The translations under genes were made by a program, and so were the position numbers. Shown here in pieces: positions 15,901 to 25,527 of a stretch of DNA of 55,812 bases. The DNA is from an uncultured Oscillospiraceae bacterium (GTDB lineage: Bacteria > Bacillota > Clostridia > Oscillospirales > Oscillospiraceae): positions 1-55,812 of the forward strand of contig CAMNOL010000002.1 in assembly GCA_946546815.1 (NCBI GenBank). Direction: 5' to 3'. The notes beneath the pieces are model-generated. The model was not told where the DNA came from and did no database searches. It saw only the letters and a program-made list of their open reading frames with translations. Position 1 is the first letter of the stretch, and each line of letters begins with the position of its first letter.

Positions 15901-17150
15901 GCTGTACCAATGTCAAGCGCACCACCGGACAGCATCCCGGCGGCATGGTGGTCATCCCCGGCGACAAGGAAATCTATGATTTCTGCCCGGTGCAGCACCC
16001 TGCTGACGACCCCAACTCGGACATCGTCACCACCCATTTTGAATATCATTCCATGGAGTCCAACCTGCTGAAGCTGGATATGCTGGGCCACGATGACCCC
16101 AGCATGATCCGAATGCTGCAGGATCTGACCGGCGTGGATCCCCGCACTATTCCCCTGGACGACAAGGACACCATGTCCCTGTTCTGCAGTTCTAAAGCGC
16201 TGGGCTTTGAGGACGATCCGGTGCTGGGACCCACGGGTGCTGTGGCGATTCCGGAATTTGGAACGCCCTTTACCCGGCAGATGCTGGTGGACACACAGCC
16301 GAAAAACTTCAACACCCTGCTGCGCCTGTCCGGCTTCTCTCACGGCACGGACGTGTGGCTGGGCAACGCAAAGGATCTGATCCTGAGCAAAACCGCCTCT
16401 GTTGAGGAGGCCATCGGCTGCCGTGACGACATTATGCTGTACCTGATCTCTATGGGCTGCGATCCGCTGCACAGCTTTAAATTTATGGAGGCGGTCCGAA
16501 AGGGCGTCATCCACAAGGGCAAGAGCTGGCCGGAAGGCATCGAAGAGGAGATGAAGGCCCACAACATCCCTCAGTGGTACATCGAATCCTGCCGGAAAAT
16601 CAAATATCTGTTCCCTAAGGCCCACGCAGTTGCCTATGTTATGATGGCCTTCCGCATCGCGTATTTTAAGGTACACGATCCGCTGGCCTTCTACGCCACC
16701 TATTTCTCCATTCGGGCGAAGGCGGTGGATGCAACCTGTATGTTCCTGGGGATGCAGACGGTACAGGACAAGATGAAGGAGCTCAAGGCCAAAGAAAAAA
16801 CCACCGACGTGGAGGATAAGATGTACACCACGCTGGAGGTCTGCTATGAGATGTACCTTCGGGGGTATACCTTTAAAAAGATGAATCTGATGGAGGTACA
16901 GGCCACCCGATTTGGCGTGGACCGGGAGCATAACGCGCTGATTCCCTGCCTGACCTCTATTCCCGGACTGGGCGAGGCGGCGGCAGAAGCCACCGTTGAA
17001 GCCATCAAAGACCGGAACGGAAAACCCTTTATCTCGGTGGAAGAGGTTTCCGCCTGCTGCTCCAAGCTCTCCGAGGCACACCTGAAGGCGCTGCGGTTTA
17101 TGGGTGCACTGGACGGTCTGCCGGAAACCAGTCAGATTACATTGTTCTGA
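12930..17150 (+). CDS. polC: DNA polymerase III alpha subunit, PolC type
   Basis: The 1406-residue Gram-positive replicative polymerase with built-in proofreading. In order: a variable proline/alanine-rich N-terminal region (to about 190), an OB fold beginning near TVCVTGRIF, the first PHP half at HLHTRFS (His298), a DEDDh exonuclease inserted in PHP starting at FDLETTG (Asp385), the second PHP half, a zinc-binding stretch (YRCPKCKFSDF ... RTCPVCGAKL, about 869-910), the catalytic DIDLNFS (Asp925, Asp927) and the usual C-terminus ending in ITLF. The start is TTG at 12930, 7 bases after AAAGGGGG. Its stop codon is the first triplet of a palindromic repeat. Confidence 0.97.
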   Translation: MHSGDTITLLKMFPRCSVQGRLYDAAACCVVQHAVISPARRAIELEVSFSVPQSPEICERLERVLRRDYDLTCVELKLVDLAQVTQAIAQLELEQDAAEKDWPPVPAEVSSQPEPEESAPPPAEAAVPAMASAQDLFARTKAMRARRMKSVPKIAPPAGKRPKSYHLVAVPSDEMLFGRRIRGHSIPMSDLDLNLRTVCVTGRIFSDNSRELKKRNAWVVSFNITDNTNSVTVSKFMEKKEAEPLMKALKKGTYVTVEGKLSLSRYSNDMELNPFAIAKADPPAERQDTAPEKRVELHLHTRFSTMDALTEVKDAVKRAIKWGHKAIAITDHGVAQAFPDACAAAGDKIKVIYGTEAYFINDVDERVVVRGETSAQFDDEIVCFDLETTGLNNRTDQIIEIGAVLLKGSEIVDRFDTFVDPGFPIPRKIVELTSITDEMVAGAPSQEEALNQFLDWAGDRLLAAHNADFDMGFLTEGCKRIGRPFQNPSLDTLTLSQYLLPDLGKYTLDSVSTRLGLQDFHHHRACDDAAMVGYMLVPFWKMLRDMGVHQISQINQKMVTLRNGSRRRQKRRHLIVLAKNQNGLRNLYKLISLAHLEHFQRRPVMPKSLIDENREGLIIGSACEAGELYQAVAARRDWKELLRIAKWYDFLEIQPLCNNHFMIADGTARDEEELREFNRTIVRLGKALNKPVCATGDVHFLDPEQEIFRHILLAFNGFDSADDELPIYFKTTDEMLEEFAYLGEEDCHKVVVEDPNRIAKWCDPIKPLPKGLFAPKLKDSDKELEFLVYDKAHKLYGEQLPQIVQDRIDLELPGIIQRKYDVIYMSAQKLVHNSLEHGYLVGSRGSVGSSIVAFLSGITEVNSLPPHYRCPKCKFSDFQVDQKQYGCGADLPDRTCPVCGAKLDKDGFNIPFETFLGYGGTKVPDIDLNFSGEYQAKAHRYTFELFGEGHVFKAGTVGTVAEKTAYGFVLKYLEQREKKVSRAEEERLALGCTNVKRTTGQHPGGMVVIPGDKEIYDFCPVQHPADDPNSDIVTTHFEYHSMESNLLKLDMLGHDDPSMIRMLQDLTGVDPRTIPLDDKDTMSLFCSSKALGFEDDPVLGPTGAVAIPEFGTPFTRQMLVDTQPKNFNTLLRLSGFSHGTDVWLGNAKDLILSKTASVEEAIGCRDDIMLYLISMGCDPLHSFKFMEAVRKGVIHKGKSWPEGIEEEMKAHNIPQWYIESCRKIKYLFPKAHAVAYVMMAFRIAYFKVHDPLAFYATYFSIRAKAVDATCMFLGMQTVQDKMKELKAKEKTTDVEDKMYTTLEVCYEMYLRGYTFKKMNLMEVQATRFGVDREHNALIPCLTSIPGLGEAAAEATVEAIKDRNGKPFISVEEVSACCSKLSEAHLKALRFMGALDGLPETSQITLF

Positions 17151-17280
17151 GGAAGCGCTGATTCCATCCGTCTGCGACGTCTGAGCGGTAGCTTTCCCCA
17201 ATCCGATGTCAGGATTTGAACGGCGGCTGGCAAAGAAATCCTAGACCAGCTATCCGAGAGATGAAATCAGTCCTTCCTCA
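17148..17280 (+). repeat. Palindromic intergenic repeat, copy A
   Basis: The 133-bp element has terminal inverted repeats: 17151-17168 against 17260-17277 (15 of 18 positions pair), extended outward by TGAGGAAG and CTTCCTCA, so the first triplet is the polC stop codon. The right 40 bases closely match copy B (CATCCGAGAGAT ... ATCAGTCCTTCC). Copy A has about 45 extra interior bases relative to B. No reading frame is evident, which suggests a MITE/REP-like element. Confidence 0.75.
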
Positions 17281-17382
17281 ATCAAACCGCTGTTATGGCG
17301 ATCAGCCGCCGACGTTTTGTCCCTGTACGCATTTTTTCCGGGGAGAGGGCATCGGCGTGCTGCAGCGCCGGAAAGAAGGATT

Positions 17383-18009
17383 ATGAGTCAGAAAAAGCCA
17401 AACATCCTGGAGTGGGCAAAGGAGCTTCAGGCCATGAGCACCGCCGGACGGTTTTACACCAAAGATGTGTTCGACCGGGAGCGGTACGACCGCATACTGG
17501 AAATTGCGGCAGAAATGACCGCCGTCAGCTCTGATGAGCCTTACGAATCCATCAAGGCTGTTTTTTCACAGGAAACCATTTACCAGACGCCGAAAATCGA
17601 CAGCCGCGCCATCCTGTTCAACGAGCGGAATGAGGTGCTGCTGGTGGAGGAGTTGGACCACACCTGGGCGCCTCCCGGGGGCTGGTGTGAGTACAATCTG
17701 ACGCCGGCGGCCAACGCGGTGAAAGAGGCCAGGGAAGAGGCCGGTGTGGATGTGGAGGTCTGCCGGTTGGTGGCGGTCCATGACCAGCACAAGTGGAACG
17801 AGCCCTTCGAGTTCTTCACCGTGCAGCGGTTTCTCTACCTCTGCCGACTGAAAGGTGGAGCGTTTCAGCAGAACATTGAGACCCTGGGCAGCGGCTGGTT
17901 TTCCCTGGATCAGCTGCCGAAGCTGCATCCGCGTAAAATCGCTCCGGAACAGCTGCGCCTTTGCCTGCAGGCAAGTCAGGCAGATGTGTGGGAGACCCGG
18001 TTTGACTAA
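17383..18009 (+). CDS. NUDIX hydrolase with N-terminal NUDIX-associated domain (YjhB-like)
   Basis: A 208-residue protein. The first 65 residues form a helical domain of the kind found before YjhB-like NUDIX domains, and the remainder is a NUDIX fold. The Nudix box starts near residue 99 (GGWCEYNLTPAA ... KEAREEAGV). The core REEAGV glutamates are intact, but the first box glutamate is Leu and the first arginine is Lys, as in several relatives of this subfamily. Such enzymes cleave nucleoside diphosphates linked to other groups (ADP-ribose or sugar nucleotides); the substrate is unknown. GAAGGA sits just ahead of the ATG at 17383. The gene stands alone between polC and the his operon, bracketed by palindromic repeats, with no obvious promoter. 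Confidence 0.88.
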   Translation: MSQKKPNILEWAKELQAMSTAGRFYTKDVFDRERYDRILEIAAEMTAVSSDEPYESIKAVFSQETIYQTPKIDSRAILFNERNEVLLVEELDHTWAPPGGWCEYNLTPAANAVKEAREEAGVDVEVCRLVAVHDQHKWNEPFEFFTVQRFLYLCRLKGGAFQQNIETLGSGWFSLDQLPKLHPRKIAPEQLRLCLQASQADVWETRFD

Positions 18010-18094
18010 GGAAACACTGATTCAATCAAGCTACGGCGTCTGGACGAAAATATCCTCGTCCAGCCATCCGAGAGATTGAATCAGTCCTTCCCTA
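18007..18094 (+). repeat. Palindromic intergenic repeat, copy B
   Basis: An 88-bp element beginning with the NUDIX gene stop codon TAA. The left arm GGAAACACTGATTCAATC (18010-18027) pairs with GATTGAATCAGTCCTTCC (18074-18091), 16 of 18 positions. Inside, CTGGACGA pairs with TCGTCCAG (8 bp). It can form a long branched hairpin on either strand, and it ends 26 bases before the hisZ promoter. Confidence 0.8.
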
Positions 18095-18120
18095 AAGGGT
18101 GAGATCCGTCAGATTCGCGG

Positions 18121-18149
18121 TTGACAAAACGTTGAATGTGTGTTAATGT
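18121..18149 (+). promoter_or_regulatory. Promoter of the histidine operon
   Basis: A perfect TTGACA (18121-18126), a 17-bp spacer and TAATGT (18144-18149). The transcript would have a leader of about 115 bases before hisZ. Confidence 0.75.
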
Positions 18150-18172
18150 ATTAGCGAATTAAAGTATGCGGA

Positions 18173-18230
18173 GACGCCGCACAATGGCTGCTGCTGTTGT
18201 GCGGAGTTTCCTGTTCTGCGGACGCGGCGC
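18173..18230 (+). other. Structured his-operon leader with alternative pairings
   Basis: CCGCACAA (18177-18184) pairs perfectly with TTGTGCGG (18197-18204) around a CTG-repeat loop. The same upstream CGCCGC can instead pair with GCGGCG a little further downstream, so two mutually exclusive folds are possible. No T-box motif and no histidine-rich leader peptide is visible, so any control mechanism is unknown. Confidence 0.4.
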
Positions 18231-18271
18231 AAATCAGCGCTGGTACAGGAAAGATATAGGAGTTCCATGGT

Positions 18272-19447
18272 ATGAAGTATATTCCCAACACGCCGGAAGG
18301 CACCCGTGACCGCCTGTTTGGAGAGTGTGCGGAGCGCCGTCAGGTGCAGAACCGGCTGACCCAGCTCTTTGATCAGCGGGGGTACACTGAAATTATGACG
18401 CCGGACGTGGAGTTTTACGATGTGTTCACCCTGGCCGGAAACAGCATTCCCCAGGAATCCATGCTGAAACTGGTAGACAAGAGCGGAAAGCTGCTGGTCA
18501 TGCGTCCGGACAGCACCACCCCCATCGCCCGCGTGGCGGCGACCAAGCTCAAGGATATGGTGTTGCCCCGCCGGTTCTACTACAGCCAGTGCAAATACCG
18601 ATCCAGCTCCGGCAACAAGGGGGAAAACGGTGAAATGCCCCAGGTGGGCGTGGAGCTCATCGGCGCCTCCGGCAAAAAGGCAGATCTGGAGATGATCGTC
18701 GCAGCAGTGGACGCGATCCGCTGCTGCCAGGTGGAGAAGTTCCATGTGGAAATCGGCCACGCCAGCATTTTCGCTTCCTTTATGCAGGGGCTTCAGCTGG
18801 ACGAGGATACTGTGGAGACCATCCGGTCGCTGATCGAGGGCAAAAATTTTGCCGCGCTGAACGATGTGCTGGAAAAGTGGGCGGATAGCCCGGAGACCAG
18901 CGCAGTGAAGCGGCTGGCTTACCTGTTTGGCGGCGCAGAGGTGCTGGATGAGGCGGAGCAGCTGCTGGGCCGGAAGGATGAGGCCGTCGAGTATCTGCGG
19001 GAGCTGTACGAGATTCTCAATGCCGCCGGCTACGGGGACTATGTCCGATTCGATCTGGGCATGGTACATCAGATTGACTACTACACCGGCGTGATTTTCC
19101 GGGGCTATGTGGAGGGGGCAGGCACAGCCGTTCTCTCCGGCGGACGGTATGACAACCTGTGCGCCGCCTTTGGCCGTCCTGCTGAAGCCATTGGCTTTGC
19201 CGTGGACGTGGACGCGGTGGCCGCCTGCCTGCCGGCGGTGGAGCTGCCTCAGGTGCAGACGGTGATCCATTACGAGCCCTCTCAGCTGGCAAAGGCGCTG
19301 GAAATTGTGGACTCTCTGCCCCAGGGCAGCAGCGAGCTGTCCCCGTGCAGCCGTCTGGAGAGCACAATGAATCTGGCCCGGGAAAAGGGCATCAAAACTG
19401 TTGTTGTACTGGATAAAAACGGACAGCGGGAGTGCGCGGTTGTCTGA
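18272..19447 (+). CDS. hisZ: ATP phosphoribosyltransferase regulatory subunit HisZ
   Basis: A 391-residue paralogue of histidyl-tRNA synthetase that lacks aminoacylation activity and forms the complex with short-form HisG. Class II synthetase-like segments are visible: TPEGTRDRLFGE at the N-terminus, MRPDSTTPIAR, YYSQCKYRSSS, and the motif-like GGRYDNLCAAFGRP near residue 290. The C-terminus lacks the full anticodon-binding domain of HisS. AGGAG is 9 bases before the ATG at 18272; an ATG at 18267 is out of frame and opens only a two-codon frame. First gene of the his operon. Confidence 0.93.
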   Translation: MKYIPNTPEGTRDRLFGECAERRQVQNRLTQLFDQRGYTEIMTPDVEFYDVFTLAGNSIPQESMLKLVDKSGKLLVMRPDSTTPIARVAATKLKDMVLPRRFYYSQCKYRSSSGNKGENGEMPQVGVELIGASGKKADLEMIVAAVDAIRCCQVEKFHVEIGHASIFASFMQGLQLDEDTVETIRSLIEGKNFAALNDVLEKWADSPETSAVKRLAYLFGGAEVLDEAEQLLGRKDEAVEYLRELYEILNAAGYGDYVRFDLGMVHQIDYYTGVIFRGYVEGAGTAVLSGGRYDNLCAAFGRPAEAIGFAVDVDAVAACLPAVELPQVQTVIHYEPSQLAKALEIVDSLPQGSSELSPCSRLESTMNLAREKGIKTVVVLDKNGQRECAVV

Positions 19448-19556
19448 CCCGGCAGGGAAGGGACAGAGCATCCCCATGAGTCTGATAGAGGATAGATCGC
19501 TGCGGTTCCATCTCCGGAAAAGGAAACCGGCGCAGCGGAAAGGAATGATCAAAAGT

Positions 19557-20204
19557 ATGAGCAATCGCCTGCGTATCGCGCTGACCAAGGGCCGCCTGCA
19601 GGACCAATCTGTGGCGCTGTTTGAACGCTCAGGTATGGACTGTACTCCTATCAAGCATCCCGGCCGCCGGCTGGTCCACTCGATTCCCAATTATCCGCTG
19701 GACGCGGTGCTGTCCAAAGCGCCGGACGTGATTACCTATGTGGAGCACGGAACCTGCGATCTGGGGATTGTAGGCAAGGACACCATCATGGAAAAGGGCG
19801 GTTCCTTCTACGAGGTCATGGATCTGGGGTTTGGCAGATGCCGCTTTGCACTGGCGGTTCCGAAGGGCGCGGATTTTTACGGCACCTACAAAACACGGGT
19901 CATCGCTTCCAAATACCCCAACGTTGCCAAGGCGTTTTTCGTTGCCAAGGGCATGGACGTGGACATCATCAAAATCGAGGGCAGTGTGGAGCTCGCTCCC
20001 ATTCTGGGACTGGCCGACGGCATTGTGGACATTGTGGAGACCGGTGCCACGCTGAAGGCCAACGGGTTGGTGCCCATTGAGACTGTGGCGCCCATTTCTG
20101 CCCGGCTCATCGTCAACACCGCCAGCATGAAGCTGTATAAAAACGAAATTCTGGATTTCATCTCCAGATGCGAAAAGGAACTGAAGGAGGCGCAGGAGGG
20201 ATGA
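19557..20204 (+). CDS. hisG: ATP phosphoribosyltransferase catalytic subunit, short form
   Basis: A 215-residue enzyme joining ATP and PRPP, the first and feedback-controlled step of histidine synthesis. The length fits the short HisG class, which needs HisZ, present just upstream. Landmarks are RIALTKGRL at the N-terminus, DLGIVGKD, and the PRPP loop region GIVDIVETGATLKANGL. Several in-frame ATGs precede the family start; 19557 is chosen because AAAGGA lies 12 bases before it and the protein then begins MSNRLRIALTK. Its stop overlaps the hisD start (ATGA). Confidence 0.94.
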   Translation: MSNRLRIALTKGRLQDQSVALFERSGMDCTPIKHPGRRLVHSIPNYPLDAVLSKAPDVITYVEHGTCDLGIVGKDTIMEKGGSFYEVMDLGFGRCRFALAVPKGADFYGTYKTRVIASKYPNVAKAFFVAKGMDVDIIKIEGSVELAPILGLADGIVDIVETGATLKANGLVPIETVAPISARLIVNTASMKLYKNEILDFISRCEKELKEAQEG

Positions 20205-21487
20205 TCCCCATTATAAAAGCAGACGGGACCGCAGAGCTGCAGCTGATTGACAACCTGCGCACCCGGGCCGCTCAGGCCAATGAAACCATTGTCAAAACTG
20301 CCGCCGCTGTCATGGAGGATGTGCGTGTCCGGGGCTTCGAGGCCGTCCGGGAGTACTCTTTGAGATTTGACGGGGCGGAGCCGAGAGAGTTTGCGGCAGA
20401 GGAGCTGCAGGCCGCTTACGATGCCTGTGATCCGCTGCTGATTCAGGCGATGGAGCACGCAGCCGCCAACATCCGGGACTACAACGAGCATCTGCTGACC
20501 AAAACCACCGAGTGGACCAGCCCGGACGGGGGCAGAGTGGGCCGCATTGTGCGTGGGCTGACCCGGGTTGGCATCTACGTGCCCGGCGGTACCGCCGCAT
20601 ATCCGTCCTCTGTGCTGATGAATGCGGTCCCGGCCAAGGTCGCCGGGGTGGAGGAGATCATTATGGTCACACCGCCCACGGAAAACCTAAATCAGGCAGT
20701 GCTGGCCGCCGCAAAAATTGCCGGAGTGGACCGCGTCATCGGTGTGGGCGGAACTCAGGCCGTTGCCGCGCTGACCTACGGCGCAGGCTTTATTCCCAGA
20801 GTGGACAAGCTGGTGGGACCGGGCAACGCCTATGTGGCCGCCGCCAAGCGCATGGCCTACGGCACGCTGGACATCGACATGGTCGCCGGCCCCAGTGAAG
20901 TGCTGGTCATTGCAGATGACACCGCCAATCCCAAATATGTGGCCGCAGACCTGATGAGTCAGGCGGAGCACGACCCCATGGCCTCCGCTATGCTGATTAC
21001 CACCAGTCTGGAGCTTGCCCAGGCGGTGGATAGGGAAATTGTGCGGCAGATGGGCTATCTGACCCGGAGCGAGATCATGGAGGAATCGTTCCGCAATTTT
21101 GGTGCCGCCATTGTCTGTGATACCCTGGAGCGGGCGGCGGAGCTTGCCAACATTGAGGCGCCGGAGCACCTGGAGATCTGCACGGAGCATCCCCGGGAGG
21201 TGCTAAAGAACATAAAAAATGCCGGTGCGGTGTTTCTGGGCAGCTATGCTCCGGAACCGTTGGGAGATTATCTGGCCGGTCCGGACCATGTGCTGCCCAC
21301 CAGCGGCACGGCACGGTTTTTCTCTCCGCTCTCTGTGGACAGCTTCCTGAAGACCATGAGTGTGCTGGAATTTGACCGGGACACACTGAAAAAGCTGCAC
21401 AAAGAGGTGGAGTGCTTTGCAGAAACCGAACATCTGACAGCCCACGCCAATTCCATCAAAGTGCGGTTTGAGGACGACGAGGAGTAA
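20201..21487 (+). CDS. hisD: Histidinol dehydrogenase
   Basis: A 428-residue zinc enzyme performing the last two oxidations, histidinol to histidine. The family pattern is clear: YVPGGTAAYPSSVLMN, GNAYVAAAKRMAYG, DMVAGPSEVLVIAD and the metal/catalytic segment DLMSQAEHDPMA. It starts within the hisG stop (ATGA overlap) after GGAGG. Confidence 0.97.
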   Translation: MIPIIKADGTAELQLIDNLRTRAAQANETIVKTAAAVMEDVRVRGFEAVREYSLRFDGAEPREFAAEELQAAYDACDPLLIQAMEHAAANIRDYNEHLLTKTTEWTSPDGGRVGRIVRGLTRVGIYVPGGTAAYPSSVLMNAVPAKVAGVEEIIMVTPPTENLNQAVLAAAKIAGVDRVIGVGGTQAVAALTYGAGFIPRVDKLVGPGNAYVAAAKRMAYGTLDIDMVAGPSEVLVIADDTANPKYVAADLMSQAEHDPMASAMLITTSLELAQAVDREIVRQMGYLTRSEIMEESFRNFGAAIVCDTLERAAELANIEAPEHLEICTEHPREVLKNIKNAGAVFLGSYAPEPLGDYLAGPDHVLPTSGTARFFSPLSVDSFLKTMSVLEFDRDTLKKLHKEVECFAETEHLTAHANSIKVRFEDDEE

Positions 21488-21490
21488 CTT

Positions 21491-22099
21491 ATGGGATATA
21501 TTGCAGTGGTTGACTACGATGTGGGCAACCTGATGAGTGTCAACAACGGAATGAAATACCTGGGTTTTTCCACCAAAGTGACCGCTGACCCGAAGGAGCT
21601 GGAGCTGGCGGACGCCATCATCCTGCCCGGCGTGGGAGCGTTTCCCGACGCGGCGGCAAAGCTGGAACAGAGCGGCCTGATGGAGGCCCTGCGGAAGCAG
21701 AGTCAGAAAAAGCCCATGCTGGGTATCTGCCTGGGGATGCAGCTGCTCTTTGAAAAGGGCTACGAGGTCCGGGAGGCCAACGGCCTGGGGCTGGTTCCGG
21801 GAACGGTGGAGTACATCCAGACCCCGTATAAACTGCCTCACATTGGCTGGAACAGCCTGAAATTCCCAAATTCCTCTCCGCTGTTCGCCGGACTGGAGGA
21901 GGACTGCTACGTCTACTTTGTCCACTCCTTCCGGGGGCTGCCTGCCAATCCGTCCAATGTCATCGCCACCACGGACTACGGCACGGAGATCACTGCGGCA
22001 GTGCAGAACGGAGCGGTTTTCGGCACTCAGTTCCACCCGGAAAAATCCGGTGAGGTGGGACTGCAAATGCTGCATAATTTTGGAGGGATGAACAGATGA
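21491..22099 (+). CDS. hisH: Imidazole glycerol phosphate synthase glutamine amidotransferase subunit
   Basis: A 202-residue class I amidotransferase that delivers ammonia to HisF. The catalytic cysteine lies in GICLGMQLLFEKG and the His/Glu pair in GTQFHPEKSG. The N-terminus VVDYDVGNLMSVNNG is typical. It overlaps hisA by four bases (ATGA). Confidence 0.96.
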   Translation: MGYIAVVDYDVGNLMSVNNGMKYLGFSTKVTADPKELELADAIILPGVGAFPDAAAKLEQSGLMEALRKQSQKKPMLGICLGMQLLFEKGYEVREANGLGLVPGTVEYIQTPYKLPHIGWNSLKFPNSSPLFAGLEEDCYVYFVHSFRGLPANPSNVIATTDYGTEITAAVQNGAVFGTQFHPEKSGEVGLQMLHNFGGMNR

Positions 22100-22824
22100 T
22101 TATCGAACCGGCCATTGATTTAAAGGATCAGAAGGTTGTTCGCCTCCACAAGGGTGATTTTGACACGGTGCACCAGGTGGCCGACGACCCTGTTGCGGTG
22201 GCGAAGGAATTTGCCGCTGCCGGAGCCAGAGTGATTCACATGGTGGATCTGGACGGCGCCAGAAGCGGAAAGCGAATCAACGCTGACATCGTTCGCCGGG
22301 TGATCGCGGAGACCGGCATGAAAGTTGAAATGGGCGGCGGCATCCGCTCCATGGAGGATCTGAAGGCCGTGGATGAAATGGGCGTGTGGCGCTTTGTCAT
22401 TGGCTCCGCTGCGGTGTCCGACCCGGAGTTTGTCGCCGAGGCAGTCAAGGTCTACGGCGAGCGCATTGCCGTGGGCGTAGACGCTAAAAACGGCGAAGTC
22501 AAAACCTCCGGCTGGGAGGAAGGCAGCGGTGTGCATTTTCTGGATTTTGCCAGAAAAATGCAGGATTTAGGGGTCAAAACCCTGATTTTCACCGACATCG
22601 ACACAGATGGGATGCTCTCCGGCCCCAGCTTTGACAGCCTGAAGCAGCTGCAGCAGGCCGTTTCCTGCCAGATTGTGGCCTCCGGCGGCGTGTCCGACAA
22701 TCAGGACATTGCTGCGCTGAACGCAATGGGACTGTACGGCGCCATCATCGGAAAGGCGTACTACGCCGGAACCATCGACCTGAAAGCGGCGGTACAGACC
22801 GGCGGAAGTCAGGAGAATCCGTAA
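22096..22824 (+). CDS. hisA: ProFAR isomerase
   Basis: A 242-residue TIM-barrel isomerase opening the ProFAR ring. Catalytic Asp8 is in PAIDLKDQKVVRL, and phosphate-binding motifs are EMGGGIRSMEDL and VASGGVSDNQD, with the second catalytic aspartate in FTDIDTDGMLSGP. It resembles HisF, as expected for the paired half-barrel families; identity as HisA rests on LHKGDFDTVHQV and the DGMLSGP loop. Confidence 0.95.
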   Translation: MIIEPAIDLKDQKVVRLHKGDFDTVHQVADDPVAVAKEFAAAGARVIHMVDLDGARSGKRINADIVRRVIAETGMKVEMGGGIRSMEDLKAVDEMGVWRFVIGSAAVSDPEFVAEAVKVYGERIAVGVDAKNGEVKTSGWEEGSGVHFLDFARKMQDLGVKTLIFTDIDTDGMLSGPSFDSLKQLQQAVSCQIVASGGVSDNQDIAALNAMGLYGAIIGKAYYAGTIDLKAAVQTGGSQENP

Positions 22825-22848
22825 CCGGCAGGGGAGAGGAGTACAGTT

Positions 22849-23610
22849 ATGTTAGCAAAGAGAATCATACCCTGTCTGGATGTGCGGGACGGAAGAGTGG
22901 TCAAAGGCGTGAATTTTGTCAACATCCGGGACGCAGGCGACCCGGTGGAGCTGGCGACCTACTACTCCAGACAGGGGGCGGACGAGATCGTATTCCTGGA
23001 CATCACCGCCACCCACGAGGCTCGAAAAACCGTAGAGGATGTGGTCCGCCGCACGGTGGAGCAGGTTTATGTCCCGGTCACTGTGGGCGGCGGCATCCGC
23101 ACAGTAGAGGATTTTCAGCGGCTGCTGCGCTCCGGCGCGGACAAGATCAGCGTCAACTCCGCCGCGGTCAAGGACCCGTCCCTGATCTCCAAAGCCGCGG
23201 AGCGGTTTGGCAGCCAGTGCGTGGTACTGGCCATCGATGCGCGCAAGTGGCCGGACGGCCGGGACGGCTGGGAAGTTGTCGTGGCCGGAGGACGGATCCC
23301 CACCGGAAAAGATTTGATCGAATGGGCCAAAGAGGGAGAGCGGCTGGGCGCGGGAGAAATCCTGCTGACCAGCATGGACGCCGATGGCACCAAACAGGGC
23401 TTTGATCTGCCCATGACAAAAGCGGTCACCGATGCGGTGAACATTCCGGTCATCGCCTCCGGCGGCTGCGGCAGTCTGGCCCATTTTGCTGAGGTGTTTC
23501 AGCAGGCCAATGCGGACGCGGCGCTGGCGGCGTCCCTGTTCCACTTCGGTGAGCTGACCGTGCCCCAGGTCAAGGAGTATCTGAAGCAGCAACACATCCC
23601 GGTCCGCTGA
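22849..23610 (+). CDS. hisF: Imidazole glycerol phosphate synthase cyclase subunit
   Basis: A 253-residue TIM barrel forming imidazole glycerol phosphate and AICAR from PRFAR and ammonia. The catalytic aspartates lie in [17 protein letters not shown] and [15 protein letters not shown], with phosphate loops [11 protein letters not shown] and [12 protein letters not shown]. It is preceded by GGGGAGAGGAG and lies 24 bases after hisA. It pairs with HisH. Confidence 0.97.
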
Positions 23611-23637
23611 ACCACTGTGAAAAAAGAGGATAACACC

Positions 23638-23970
23638 ATGATGGAAACAAAGGATTTATTCCAGAAATCGGAGCTGATTCCGGTGATCATTCAGGATCGT
23701 GCAACCAAGGACATTCTGATGCTGGGTTTTACCAATGAGGAAGCCTATCTGAAAACCCTGGAAACAAAAACCGCGTGGTTCTGGAGCCGCAGCCGTCAGA
23801 AGCTGTGGAACAAGGGAGAGAGCAGCGGCAACTTCCTGTTTGTGCGAAAGATCATTACCGACTGCGACACGGATACGCTGCTGTACATCTGCGACCCCAA
23901 AGGCCCCACCTGTCACACCGGAAAACGGAGCTGCTTCTTCAACGTTATCTGGGAGGAGGGGCAGCCATGA
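23638..23970 (+). CDS. hisI: Phosphoribosyl-AMP cyclohydrolase
   Basis: A 110-residue zinc enzyme opening the adenine ring of PR-AMP, encoded alone and not fused to HisE. Landmarks are TAWFWSRSRQKLWNKGESSG, the metal-binding aspartates and cysteine in DCDTDTLLY, and the zinc cysteines in GPTCHTG and RSCFF. The ATG at 23638 follows AGAGGA by 6 bases; a GTG at 23617 is possible but lacks a site. Its stop overlaps the following start (ATGATG). Confidence 0.95.
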   Translation: MMETKDLFQKSELIPVIIQDRATKDILMLGFTNEEAYLKTLETKTAWFWSRSRQKLWNKGESSGNFLFVRKIITDCDTDTLLYICDPKGPTCHTGKRSCFFNVIWEEGQP

Positions 23971-24587
23971 TGCACGCACAGTCCGGAATCCAGGAGCAGT
24001 ACAACGTGGCGCTGGACCGCAAGCTCCACCCGGCAGGGGAGAAGTCCTACACCAATTATCTCTACAATCAGGGATTGGATACCATCCTGAAAAAGTGCGG
24101 GGAAGAGGCGTTTGAAACGGTGGTGGCGGCAAAAAACGATGATCCTGATGAAATAGTCGGTGAGATCAACGACCTGCTGTACAATGTCACCGTGCTGCTG
24201 TGCCATCAGGACGTGACGCTGGAATCCGTCATGGAAGAGCTGAACACCCGCTGTGCCGCCCGAGAAAAGGAAATCGACGAGCTGTTTGAGGTCGTCCTTC
24301 AGCGCAGAGACGCGGGGGACGGCAAGTCCTACACCGCCTATCTGTTTGAGAAGGGACTGGATAAAATCCTGAAAAAGGTGGGGGAGGCTGCCACCATGCT
24401 GCTCATCGCCGGAAAGGGACAGGATTCAACCGCCATTGCTTACGAGACAGCTGACCTGCTGTACCACATCATGGTAATGATGGCGGCGAAACAGGTTTCC
24501 ATGGAGGCGGTTGCCGATGAAATGGACCGCCGGCTGGGTAAGCCAGGAAACCTCAAGACCTTTCACACAACTGACTTGAATACCTGA
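23967..24587 (+). CDS. hisE: Tandem-duplicated phosphoribosyl-ATP pyrophosphatase (two HisE domains)
   Basis: A 206-residue protein about twice the length of HisE, made of two HisE/MazG-type domains offset by 94 residues. Copy 1 has KSYTNYL (from Lys26), GEEAFE (Glu46, Glu47, Glu50) and EINDLLYN: all metal-binding acids are present. Copy 2 has KSYTAYL (from Lys120), GEAATM (Glu140 kept, the next two acids replaced by Ala141 and Met144) and ETADLLYH. So copy 1 looks catalytic and copy 2 degenerate or regulatory. HisE hydrolyses PR-ATP to PR-AMP, the second pathway step. It is the last gene of the operon, translationally coupled to hisI and followed by a terminator. Confidence 0.92.
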   Translation: MMHAQSGIQEQYNVALDRKLHPAGEKSYTNYLYNQGLDTILKKCGEEAFETVVAAKNDDPDEIVGEINDLLYNVTVLLCHQDVTLESVMEELNTRCAAREKEIDELFEVVLQRRDAGDGKSYTAYLFEKGLDKILKKVGEAATMLLIAGKGQDSTAIAYETADLLYHIMVMMAAKQVSMEAVADEMDRRLGKPGNLKTFHTTDLNT

Positions 24588-24593
24588 CAGATG

Positions 24594-24622
24594 AAGCCGG
24601 TGCGTTCAGCCCCGGCTTTTTT
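24594..24622 (+). terminator. Rho-independent terminator of the his operon
   Basis: AAGCCGG (24594-24600) pairs with CCGGCTT (24612-24618) and runs into six Ts. Confidence 0.85.
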
Positions 24623-24644
24623 CTGAACAATGCCGGAAAAAGAC

Positions 24645-24673
24645 TTGACAACTGGGGAGGCATCCGCTATAAT
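24645..24673 (+). promoter_or_regulatory. Consensus promoter for the glutathione peroxidase gene
   Basis: Perfect TTGACA (24645-24650) and TATAAT (24668-24673) with the ideal 17-bp spacer. Strong constitutive expression is expected unless repressed. Confidence 0.88.
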
Positions 24674-24731
24674 ACTGTCATAAATTAATTGCATACAATC
24701 AAATTTGAAAAAATTTAAGGAGAACTGGCTT

Positions 24732-25274
24732 ATGTCAATTTATGATTACAGCTTTAACACCCGGAAGGGCGCAGAAATCTCCATGGCAGACTACAAGGGC
24801 AAGGTGCTGCTGATTGTCAACACCGCAACCGGTTGCGGGTTTACTCCCCAGTACAAGGAGCTGCAGGAGATTTATGACAAGCACCACGACGACGGACTGG
24901 AGATCCTGGATTTCCCCTGCAACCAGTTCGGCAATCAGGCCCCCGGTACCGACGAGGAGATCCACACCTTCTGCACCGGCCGATTCGGCATCACCTTCCC
25001 TCAGTTTGCAAAGGTGGACGTCAACGGCGAAAACGCCCTGCCCCTGTTCCGGTATCTGACGGCCAATACCAAGTTTGAAGGCTTCGGAAAATCCCCCATG
25101 GCCCTGGTCATGAGCGGTGTGGCCAAAAAAATGGATAAGGACTACAAAAATAACAGCAACATCAAATGGAACTTCACCAAATTCCTTGTGGACCGGGAGG
25201 GCAACATCGTCGCCCGTATGGAACCCACAATGGATATGAAGAAGGTCATGGAAAAAGTTGAGGAGGTTCTTTAA
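24732..25274 (+). CDS. Glutathione peroxidase family thiol peroxidase (cysteine type)
   Basis: A 180-residue thioredoxin-fold peroxidase. The peroxidatic residue is Cys35 in NTATGCGFTPQY, where selenocysteine occurs in some relatives; the motif FPCNQFGNQ and the Trp-Asn segment NIKWNFTKFLVD complete the active site. Bacterial members usually take electrons from thioredoxin, not glutathione. The ATG at 24732 follows AAGGAGA. It is directly followed, two bases later, by the TSCPD gene and then a flavodoxin, suggesting a redox-defence unit in an anaerobe. Confidence 0.92.
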   Translation: MSIYDYSFNTRKGAEISMADYKGKVLLIVNTATGCGFTPQYKELQEIYDKHHDDGLEILDFPCNQFGNQAPGTDEEIHTFCTGRFGITFPQFAKVDVNGENALPLFRYLTANTKFEGFGKSPMALVMSGVAKKMDKDYKNNSNIKWNFTKFLVDREGNIVARMEPTMDMKKVMEKVEEVL

Positions 25275-25275
25275 T

Positions 25276-25527
25276 ATGCGTTATAATTATAAGACTCAGT
25301 ACACCTGTTCCACCAACATCAGCTTCGATCTGGACGGCAACGTGGTCAGCAACGTCCAGTTCACCGGTGGGTGCAACGGCAATCTGAAGGCCATCTCCAA
25401 GCTGGTGGACGGCATGACGGTGGAGCAGATTGAGAGCAAGCTGCTGGGCAACACCTGCGGCCGCCGTCCCACCTCCTGTGCTGACCAGCTGGCTAAGGCT
25501 GTCCGCGCCGCCTATGAAGCAAAGTAA
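25276..25527 (+). CDS. TSCPD-domain small protein (TIGR03905 type)
   Basis: An 83-residue protein matching the small TSCPD domain seen at the C-terminus of class II ribonucleotide reductases and as free-standing proteins in Clostridia. It has GGCNGNLKAISKLVDGM and a C-terminal cysteine set, TCGRRPTSCADQLA. Conserved cysteines suggest metal or redox function, but none is established. It begins two bases after the peroxidase stop, with AGGAGG inside that gene's end, so it is translationally coupled. Confidence 0.85.
   Translation: MRYNYKTQYTCSTNISFDLDGNVVSNVQFTGGCNGNLKAISKLVDGMTVEQIESKLLGNTCGRRPTSCADQLAKAVRAAYEAK

Follow-up and report, generated by a model that had tools for sequence, protein, structure and literature searches.

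The last gene of the histidine cluster in the window (the whole 55,812-nucleotide stretch analysed, from an uncultured Oscillospiraceae bacterium) encodes two consecutive HisE domains in a single chain, a tandem HisE that is real, is conserved in one group of gut bacteria and has a near precedent within its own superfamily. The reading that we favour, and hold with somewhat better than even confidence, is that one chain amounts to a HisE dimer whose only working site lies in copy 1, with copy 2 as a scaffold and the gene elongated in place. Coordinates are given in Table 1.

Table 1. The tandem hisE gene, its parts and the other his genes of the cluster, in window coordinates.
Feature	Positions	Strand	Remarks
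hisZ, ATP phosphoribosyltransferase regulatory subunit	18272..19447	+	
hisG (short form)	19551..20204	+	
hisD	20168..21487	+	scanned from 20201
hisH	21491..22099	+	
hisA	22096..22824	+	
hisF	22849..23610	+	
hisI (PRA-CH), separate gene, immediately 5' of tandem hisE	23617..23970	+	Pfam
Tandem hisE, 206 aa + stop	23967..24587	+	one open frame; PRA-PH twice
Copy 1, residues 8-95, PRA-PH with complete putative metal centre	23988..24251	+	Pfam, alignment
Copy 1 EExxE (E46, E47, E50)	24102..24116	+	
Copy 1 ExxD (E66, D69)	24162..24173	+	
Copy 2, residues 103-189, PRA-PH pseudo-domain	24273..24533	+	Pfam, alignment
Copy 2 counterpart of EExxE (E140, A141, M144)	24384..24398	+	second and fifth Glu gone
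Copy 2 ExxD (E160, D163)	24444..24455	+	retained in the window protein
C-terminal tail 3' of copy 2, ending ...GNLKTFHTTDLNT	24534..24584	+	low pLDDT in the model

The tandem hisE is the last of a one-strand series, hisZ-hisG-hisD-hisH-hisA-hisF-hisI-hisE, and its ATG overlaps the stop codon of hisI (ATGA). A perfect sigma-70-type consensus, TTGACA-17-TATAAT, separates the tandem hisE from a glutathione peroxidase-like gene (24705-25274); its position at 24645-24673 suggests hisE as the end of the his run. Just past the hisE stop, at 24595-24622, a short G+C-rich inverted repeat with a T run behind it appears terminator-like by eye, and was missed by our scan because its loop exceeds the limit of 8. 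That promoter and terminator scan (positions 17900-24900) returned no his promoter above shuffled sequences, and nothing was matched in an Rfam scan of positions 17000-25500. The hisB gene (IGPD) was located on a different contig (G000:C41:10937-11368, L162), and not between hisD and hisH. The his run is preceded by an ORF of 230 aa (17317-18009) that gave no match with NCBIfam models at 1e-10 and carries what we take to be a Nudix box.

The preliminary description of this DNA had placed two HisE domains at an offset of 94 residues, and this was borne out by the pairs S27/S121 and E46/E140, as well as by the detection of PRA-PH (PF01503) in each half scanned separately, with 66.0 bits for copy 1 and 55.3 bits for copy 2 (Pfam cut-off, 21.3 bits). 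The KSYT, GLDxILKK and DLLY motifs are present in both halves as claimed, and the translation confirmed Glu46, Glu47 and Glu50 in copy 1 and Glu140, Ala141 and Met144 in copy 2. In the window protein, both copies share 43% identity over 89 columns (BLASTP E-value of 1e-21), with a half-versus-half local score of 168, compared to a mean of 25.8 (sd 4.8, maximum 60) for 1000 shuffles, and the identity of the halves within each of the tandem proteins described below ranges from 33 to 43%. The PRA-PH profile matches 27 out of 27 tandems (E-values up to 0.001). A Pfam search on the tandem at E-values up to 0.1 recovered PRA-PH, MazG and a weak DUF, with the dUTPase family absent; the MazG match was a weak one to copy 1, copy 2 being unmatched. 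The window protein also passes the three NCBI models for HisE (TIGR03188, NF001611, NF001613), so automatic annotation would presumably label it an ordinary phosphoribosyl-ATP diphosphatase. When the contigs of the draft genome (145 contigs, 93.62% complete) were searched with the PRA-PH profile, the two tandem halves and one partial match on contig G000:C8 were found (29.7 bits, above the cut-off, profile positions 32-84), the latter taken as MazG-like from its partial coverage, and no clear further HisE was detected.

With the window protein as query, 225 of 300 genomes of the family were matched, and in eight of the 300, its own included, the match was essentially full-length (six from its own genus and one each from two other genera). 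A profile built from nine tandems was used on the 32 genomes of the genus, and it revealed a full tandem in 25 of them and a single-domain HisE in five, the two unmatched genomes being 61% and 76% complete. Beyond the family, 313 of 394 genomes of an order sample were matched, with four tandems among the matches listed, all from the genus of the window, and 197 of 249 in a phylum sample, where the own genome provided the sole tandem among the matches listed; the family, order and phylum samples overlap. As the listed matches were sorted by score, tandems of this type would come first, while a tandem of separate origin, with the profile covering one half only, could escape these searches. After removal of duplicates, 27 distinct tandem proteins were obtained. 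The search for other proteins with two PRA-PH domains, proposed in the preliminary description, was thus successful, and the tandem form withstood the frameshift or assembly error that had been named as its possible undoing: although the window comes from a draft of 145 contigs, such an artefact has a practically negligible probability and is already refuted for the group, since the full-length tandem is encoded in a stop-free frame in 26 other genomes, it occurs in 25 of 32 genomes within the genus as well as in two from other genera, and contig CACZUK010000067.1 ("Ruminococcaceae bacterium isolate RUG12962", L034) encodes a tandem protein identical to that of genome G321.

The fate of the metal centre was followed in a domain alignment of 27 copy 1, 27 copy 2 and 119 single-domain HisE sequences (5 from the genus, 35 from the family and 79 others), from whose counts L001 and L002 (both with the gene of L004), L034 (protein identical to that of L139), L140 (gene identical to that of L011), L124 (domain identical to that of L121), L003 (the partial C8 match) and L125 (without HisE) were left out. 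All five metal-motif residues are present in 119/119 singles, a uniformity biased upward by their selection for similarity to the window protein (P0001), tail included. Likewise, E46, E47, E50, E66 and D69 of copy 1 are each present in 27/27 tandems. In copy 2, the first Glu (E140) is retained in 27/27, and Glu is found in 0/27 both at the second place (Ala in 21, Ser in 6) and at the fifth (Leu in 25, Met in 1, Ser in 1); the Glu of ExxD is kept in 20/27, its Asp in 17/27 and both in 16/27. By the EExxE plus ExxD metal motifs of HisE, copy 1 qualifies and copy 2 does not.

In the plant enzyme MtHISN2, a HisIE-type fusion, metal sites are described with Glu214, Glu217, Glu220, Glu234 and Asp237, the site thought relevant being that of Glu214, Glu234 and Asp237, and AMP is contacted by Arg183, Ser195, Trp196, Thr197, Tyr240 and Arg263 (PMC8102479); in the M. 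tuberculosis MazG, the Mg2+ ligands are Glu119, Glu122, Glu138 and Asp141 (PMC10014863). On the basis of motif spacing and of where a single structural alignment begins and ends (residues 170-264 of 7bgn_A against 5-96 of the model), these residues can be provisionally equated with R18/R113, S27/S121, T29/T123, E47, E50, E66, D69, Y72/Y166 and R95/R189. The putative AMP-contact equivalents of copy 2 are highly conserved (R113, S121, T123 and R189 in 27/27, Y166 in 26/27), and, with the metal ligands gone, this suggests that in copy 2 the nucleotide side of the site has survived and the metal side has not. In copy 1, the R95 equivalent is Arg in 25/27, with Leu in L147 and L148 only. A GNLK tail follows copy 2 in 27/27 tandems and copy 1 in 0/27, and it is present in 115/119 singles.

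Between tandems, copy 1 is on average 71% identical and copy 2 61%, and the median dN/dS is 0.158 and 0.235, respectively, for the 94 of 351 tandem pairs that passed the dS filter, pairs that are non-independent and whose dS is doubtful when distant. Judged from these sequence comparisons, copy 2 is under purifying selection and not freely decaying. In eight tandems (L011, L141-L145, L147, L148), the linker between the copies is six residues longer, and the Asp of the copy 2 ExxD is replaced by Gly in all eight. Four residues of copy 1 are unusual for single-domain HisE (F49, T75 and C96 in 27/27, C79 in 26/27), perhaps for packing against copy 2.

Phylogenetic analysis of the halves grouped the copies separately. 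In a tree of 62 domains, the two sets of rows fell into separate clades, that of copy 1 with a support of 100/100 and that of copy 2 with 100/99, and in a tree of 114 domains, the respective clades had SH-aLRT values of 100 and 98, as expected from a single duplication that preceded the spread of the group. The larger tree included one in four of the 79 other singles (20), whereas the smaller took 8 of them, along with 15 of the other 29 family singles, and left out 10 near-identical tandems as well as L015, L021, L117, L120, L122 and L126. Clade constraints gave p-AU values of 0.313 for copy 1 with copy 2, 0.484 for both with the genus singles, 0.252 for copy 2 with the genus singles, and 0.434 for copy 1 with the genus singles. 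The phylogeny of the halves proposed in the preliminary description recovered each copy as a clade, but 92 columns are too few to separate an internal duplication from the fusion of two different hisE genes, and on this short alignment either half may be the newcomer. The origin of the five genus singles by deletion of one copy was considered and is not supported, as they fall outside both the copy 1 and the copy 2 clades and present EExxE in 5/5.

The surroundings of the gene are shared by both forms. The hisF and hisI genes were found upstream in 26/27 tandems, directly in 24 and, in L011 and L144, at a distance of around 650 bases, whereas the stretch of the 27th, L145, contains neither; in the genus singles, both genes are directly upstream in 5/5. 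This common hisF-hisI neighbourhood indicates that the exchange took place in place. In a HisF+HisI tree (without L145, which lacks both genes in its stretch, L012, L015, L017, L021, L117, L120, L122, L126, L127, L128 and the 79 other singles), tandem rows were scattered, the best tree required three changes, and no bootstrap tree had only one. Nevertheless, the tandems as one clade were not rejected (p-AU 0.208), which leaves room for loss or transfer within the genus, and a clade of the tandems plus the genus singles was no worse a fit than the unconstrained tree (p-AU 0.542).

Structure prediction, also proposed beforehand, yielded confident AlphaFold models for two divergent tandems (pTM 0.88 and 0.87), and in both the full chain aligns to a single protomer of dimeric dUTPases. 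Foldseek, used by itself, found no PDB entry at E < 0.001; its top matches were HisE chains covering half of the model, and there was no dUTPase among the best 50. The PRA-PH dimer is reported to have a bundle common to its two chains, whose short helices alpha4 and alpha8 overlap (PMC8102479), and for dimeric dUTPases, a duplication, a fusion and the loss of the C-terminal centre have been hypothesised (PMC12524310; PMC2954211). As in the tandem HisE, one chain of these dUTPases (C. jejuni 1w2y/2cic, staphylococcal phage 5myd/5myf) holds two modules and one metal centre, although sequence, substrate and context are different. The proposed covalent pseudo-dimer, degenerate at one of its two sites, is well supported by the 27 tandems, the two models and the matches with dUTPase protomers. 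Of the two consequences suggested for it, a change of assembly by the fusion is likely, and allosteric control may apply as one of several readings. To our knowledge, the second module of the dUTPases can no longer be identified from its sequence, in contrast to the halves of the tandem HisE, which still share a third or more of their residues (33-43%).

According to the favoured reading, an ancestral single-domain hisE in a hisF-hisI-hisE cluster would have been duplicated and fused in place, with both halves, we infer, coming from the native gene. One chain would then fold as a HisE dimer, a four-helix bundle normally built from two subunits, a prediction to which the dUTPase matches of the models speak indirectly. 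The sole catalytic centre would be in copy 1, where Mg2+ bound by E47, E50, E66 and D69 would serve the hydrolysis of PR-ATP to PR-AMP and pyrophosphate, an activity predicted from the sequence. Copy 2 would be a pseudoenzyme half whose role is to complete the bundle as well as the oligomer face, the oligomeric state of the tandem being itself presumed. In addition, the copy 1 site probably receives the C-terminal helix (R189) and the GNLK tail from copy 2, and would be completed by them across the pseudo-dimer interface. The presence of the sole tail on copy 2 and of the sole intact metal centre on copy 1, together with the invariance of the Arg263 equivalent in copy 2, argues that the C-terminal elements act across this interface. 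A similar division of labour is offered by the C. jejuni dUTPase, in which pyrophosphate recognition involves the near-C-terminal Lys175, Arg182, Tyr187, Lys194 and Asn202 (PMC2954211). The case for a contribution in trans is weakened by the invariance of SYT in both copies and by the MtHISN2 contacts with AMP, which are given with no sign of a partner chain (PMC8102479). The architecture hypothesised for dimeric dUTPases would have been reached separately here, and recently enough for both halves to stay plain HisE.

A serious contender, to which we give a fair part of our belief although less than even, is that nothing changed in function: a single active site would suffice for a dimer, and the fusion is hard to reverse, a case of constructive neutral evolution. 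It is compatible with the favoured explanation and differs from it about benefit only. The five relatives with an ordinary single-domain HisE at the same locus point in this direction, as they show that the genus can do without the fused form, and so does the ordinary appearance of the rest of the his run. Against it, the tandem is kept in 25 of the 32 genomes of the genus and occurs in two other genera, and copy 2 is still constrained, though the scaffold role alone would explain the constraint.

It is rather unlikely that copy 2 is a regulatory nucleotide site, which would not hydrolyse but sense AMP, PR-AMP or PR-ATP and tune copy 1. This possibility agrees with the loss of metal ligands and the retention of putative AMP contacts in copy 2, and AMP is reported to act on the plant ATP phosphoribosyltransferase and on the PRA-CH domain (PMC8102479). 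However, the same residues would persist if they served copy 1 or the fold alone, and their equivalence comes from motif spacing and the ends of a single structural alignment. More doubtful still is the combined proposal that the tandem is a living intermediate of the route by which all-alpha NTP pyrophosphohydrolases duplicate, fuse and lose the C-terminal centre, its dead half being also a nucleotide sensor; if true, the second step of histidine synthesis would be regulated in these bacteria. Finally, it is highly improbable that copy 2 is an active pyrophosphohydrolase using other ligands. The constancy of E140 and the 16 tandems with a whole ExxD could be cited in its favour, along with the 20-40% of activity left in M. 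tuberculosis MazG after single changes of three of its four Mg2+ ligands (PMC10014863), but both metal-ligand Glu of EExxE are absent from copy 2 throughout, the ExxD Asp is missing in 10/27, and MazG E119A, by spacing the first of these two Glu, had the lowest activity in the same report.

The favoured reading can be set against other known systems. Both halves of the tandem are HisE by sequence (PRA-PH, NF001611; B. cereus 1yvw), copy 1 with the full motif set, and the position in a his operon is common, but HisE is a single-domain homo-oligomer, whereas the tandem carries two domains per chain and one intact catalytic centre. HisIE/HISN2 proteins (6j22, 7bgm) likewise link HisE covalently to a pathway domain, which in their case is HisI and in the tandem a second HisE, the PRA-CH staying in the separate hisI gene. 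The two-domain MazG proteins (E. coli 3cra; M. tuberculosis) belong to the same superfamily and, as is described for that of M. tuberculosis, also have their domains in tandem in one chain. Unlike the tandem HisE, MazG proteins are house-cleaning NTP pyrophosphohydrolases with longer chains and without his context. One domain of the E. coli MazG is inactive. The portions of the literature returned by our search contained no paper or statement on that inactive domain. Within the same pathway, the elongation behind HisA/HisF also fused two paralogous modules (PMC1963479), but it is very ancient, universal and concerns a TIM barrel, while the HisE tandem was found in one clade only.

The fusions of his genes named in a review, as far as the consulted portion extends, are hisA/hisF, hisIE, hisHF, hisNB and hisIED (PMC1963479), and no HisE-HisE protein was found in the retrieved parts of the open-access literature on tandem or duplicated HisE, HisE structure, PRA-PH domains and Oscillospiraceae HisE. 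The earlier statement that the tandem form is not a described class agrees with this literature on HisE tandems and his fusions, but the type of change itself has a precedent, absent from the preliminary description, in dimeric dUTPases.

In conclusion, the elongation of hisE by a second hisE extends the list of his fusions given in that review. With one metal centre and one tail per chain, the tandem provides a clean route to the HisE residues that act across the dimer interface. The hypothesis for the origin of dUTPases concerns an old event, and the tandem HisE presents the same three steps within one genus, so that it looks like a traceable replay of the presumed origin of dimeric dUTPases. 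As five close relatives conserve an unfused hisE at the same locus, the order of these steps and their cost or gain can be tested with real sequences.
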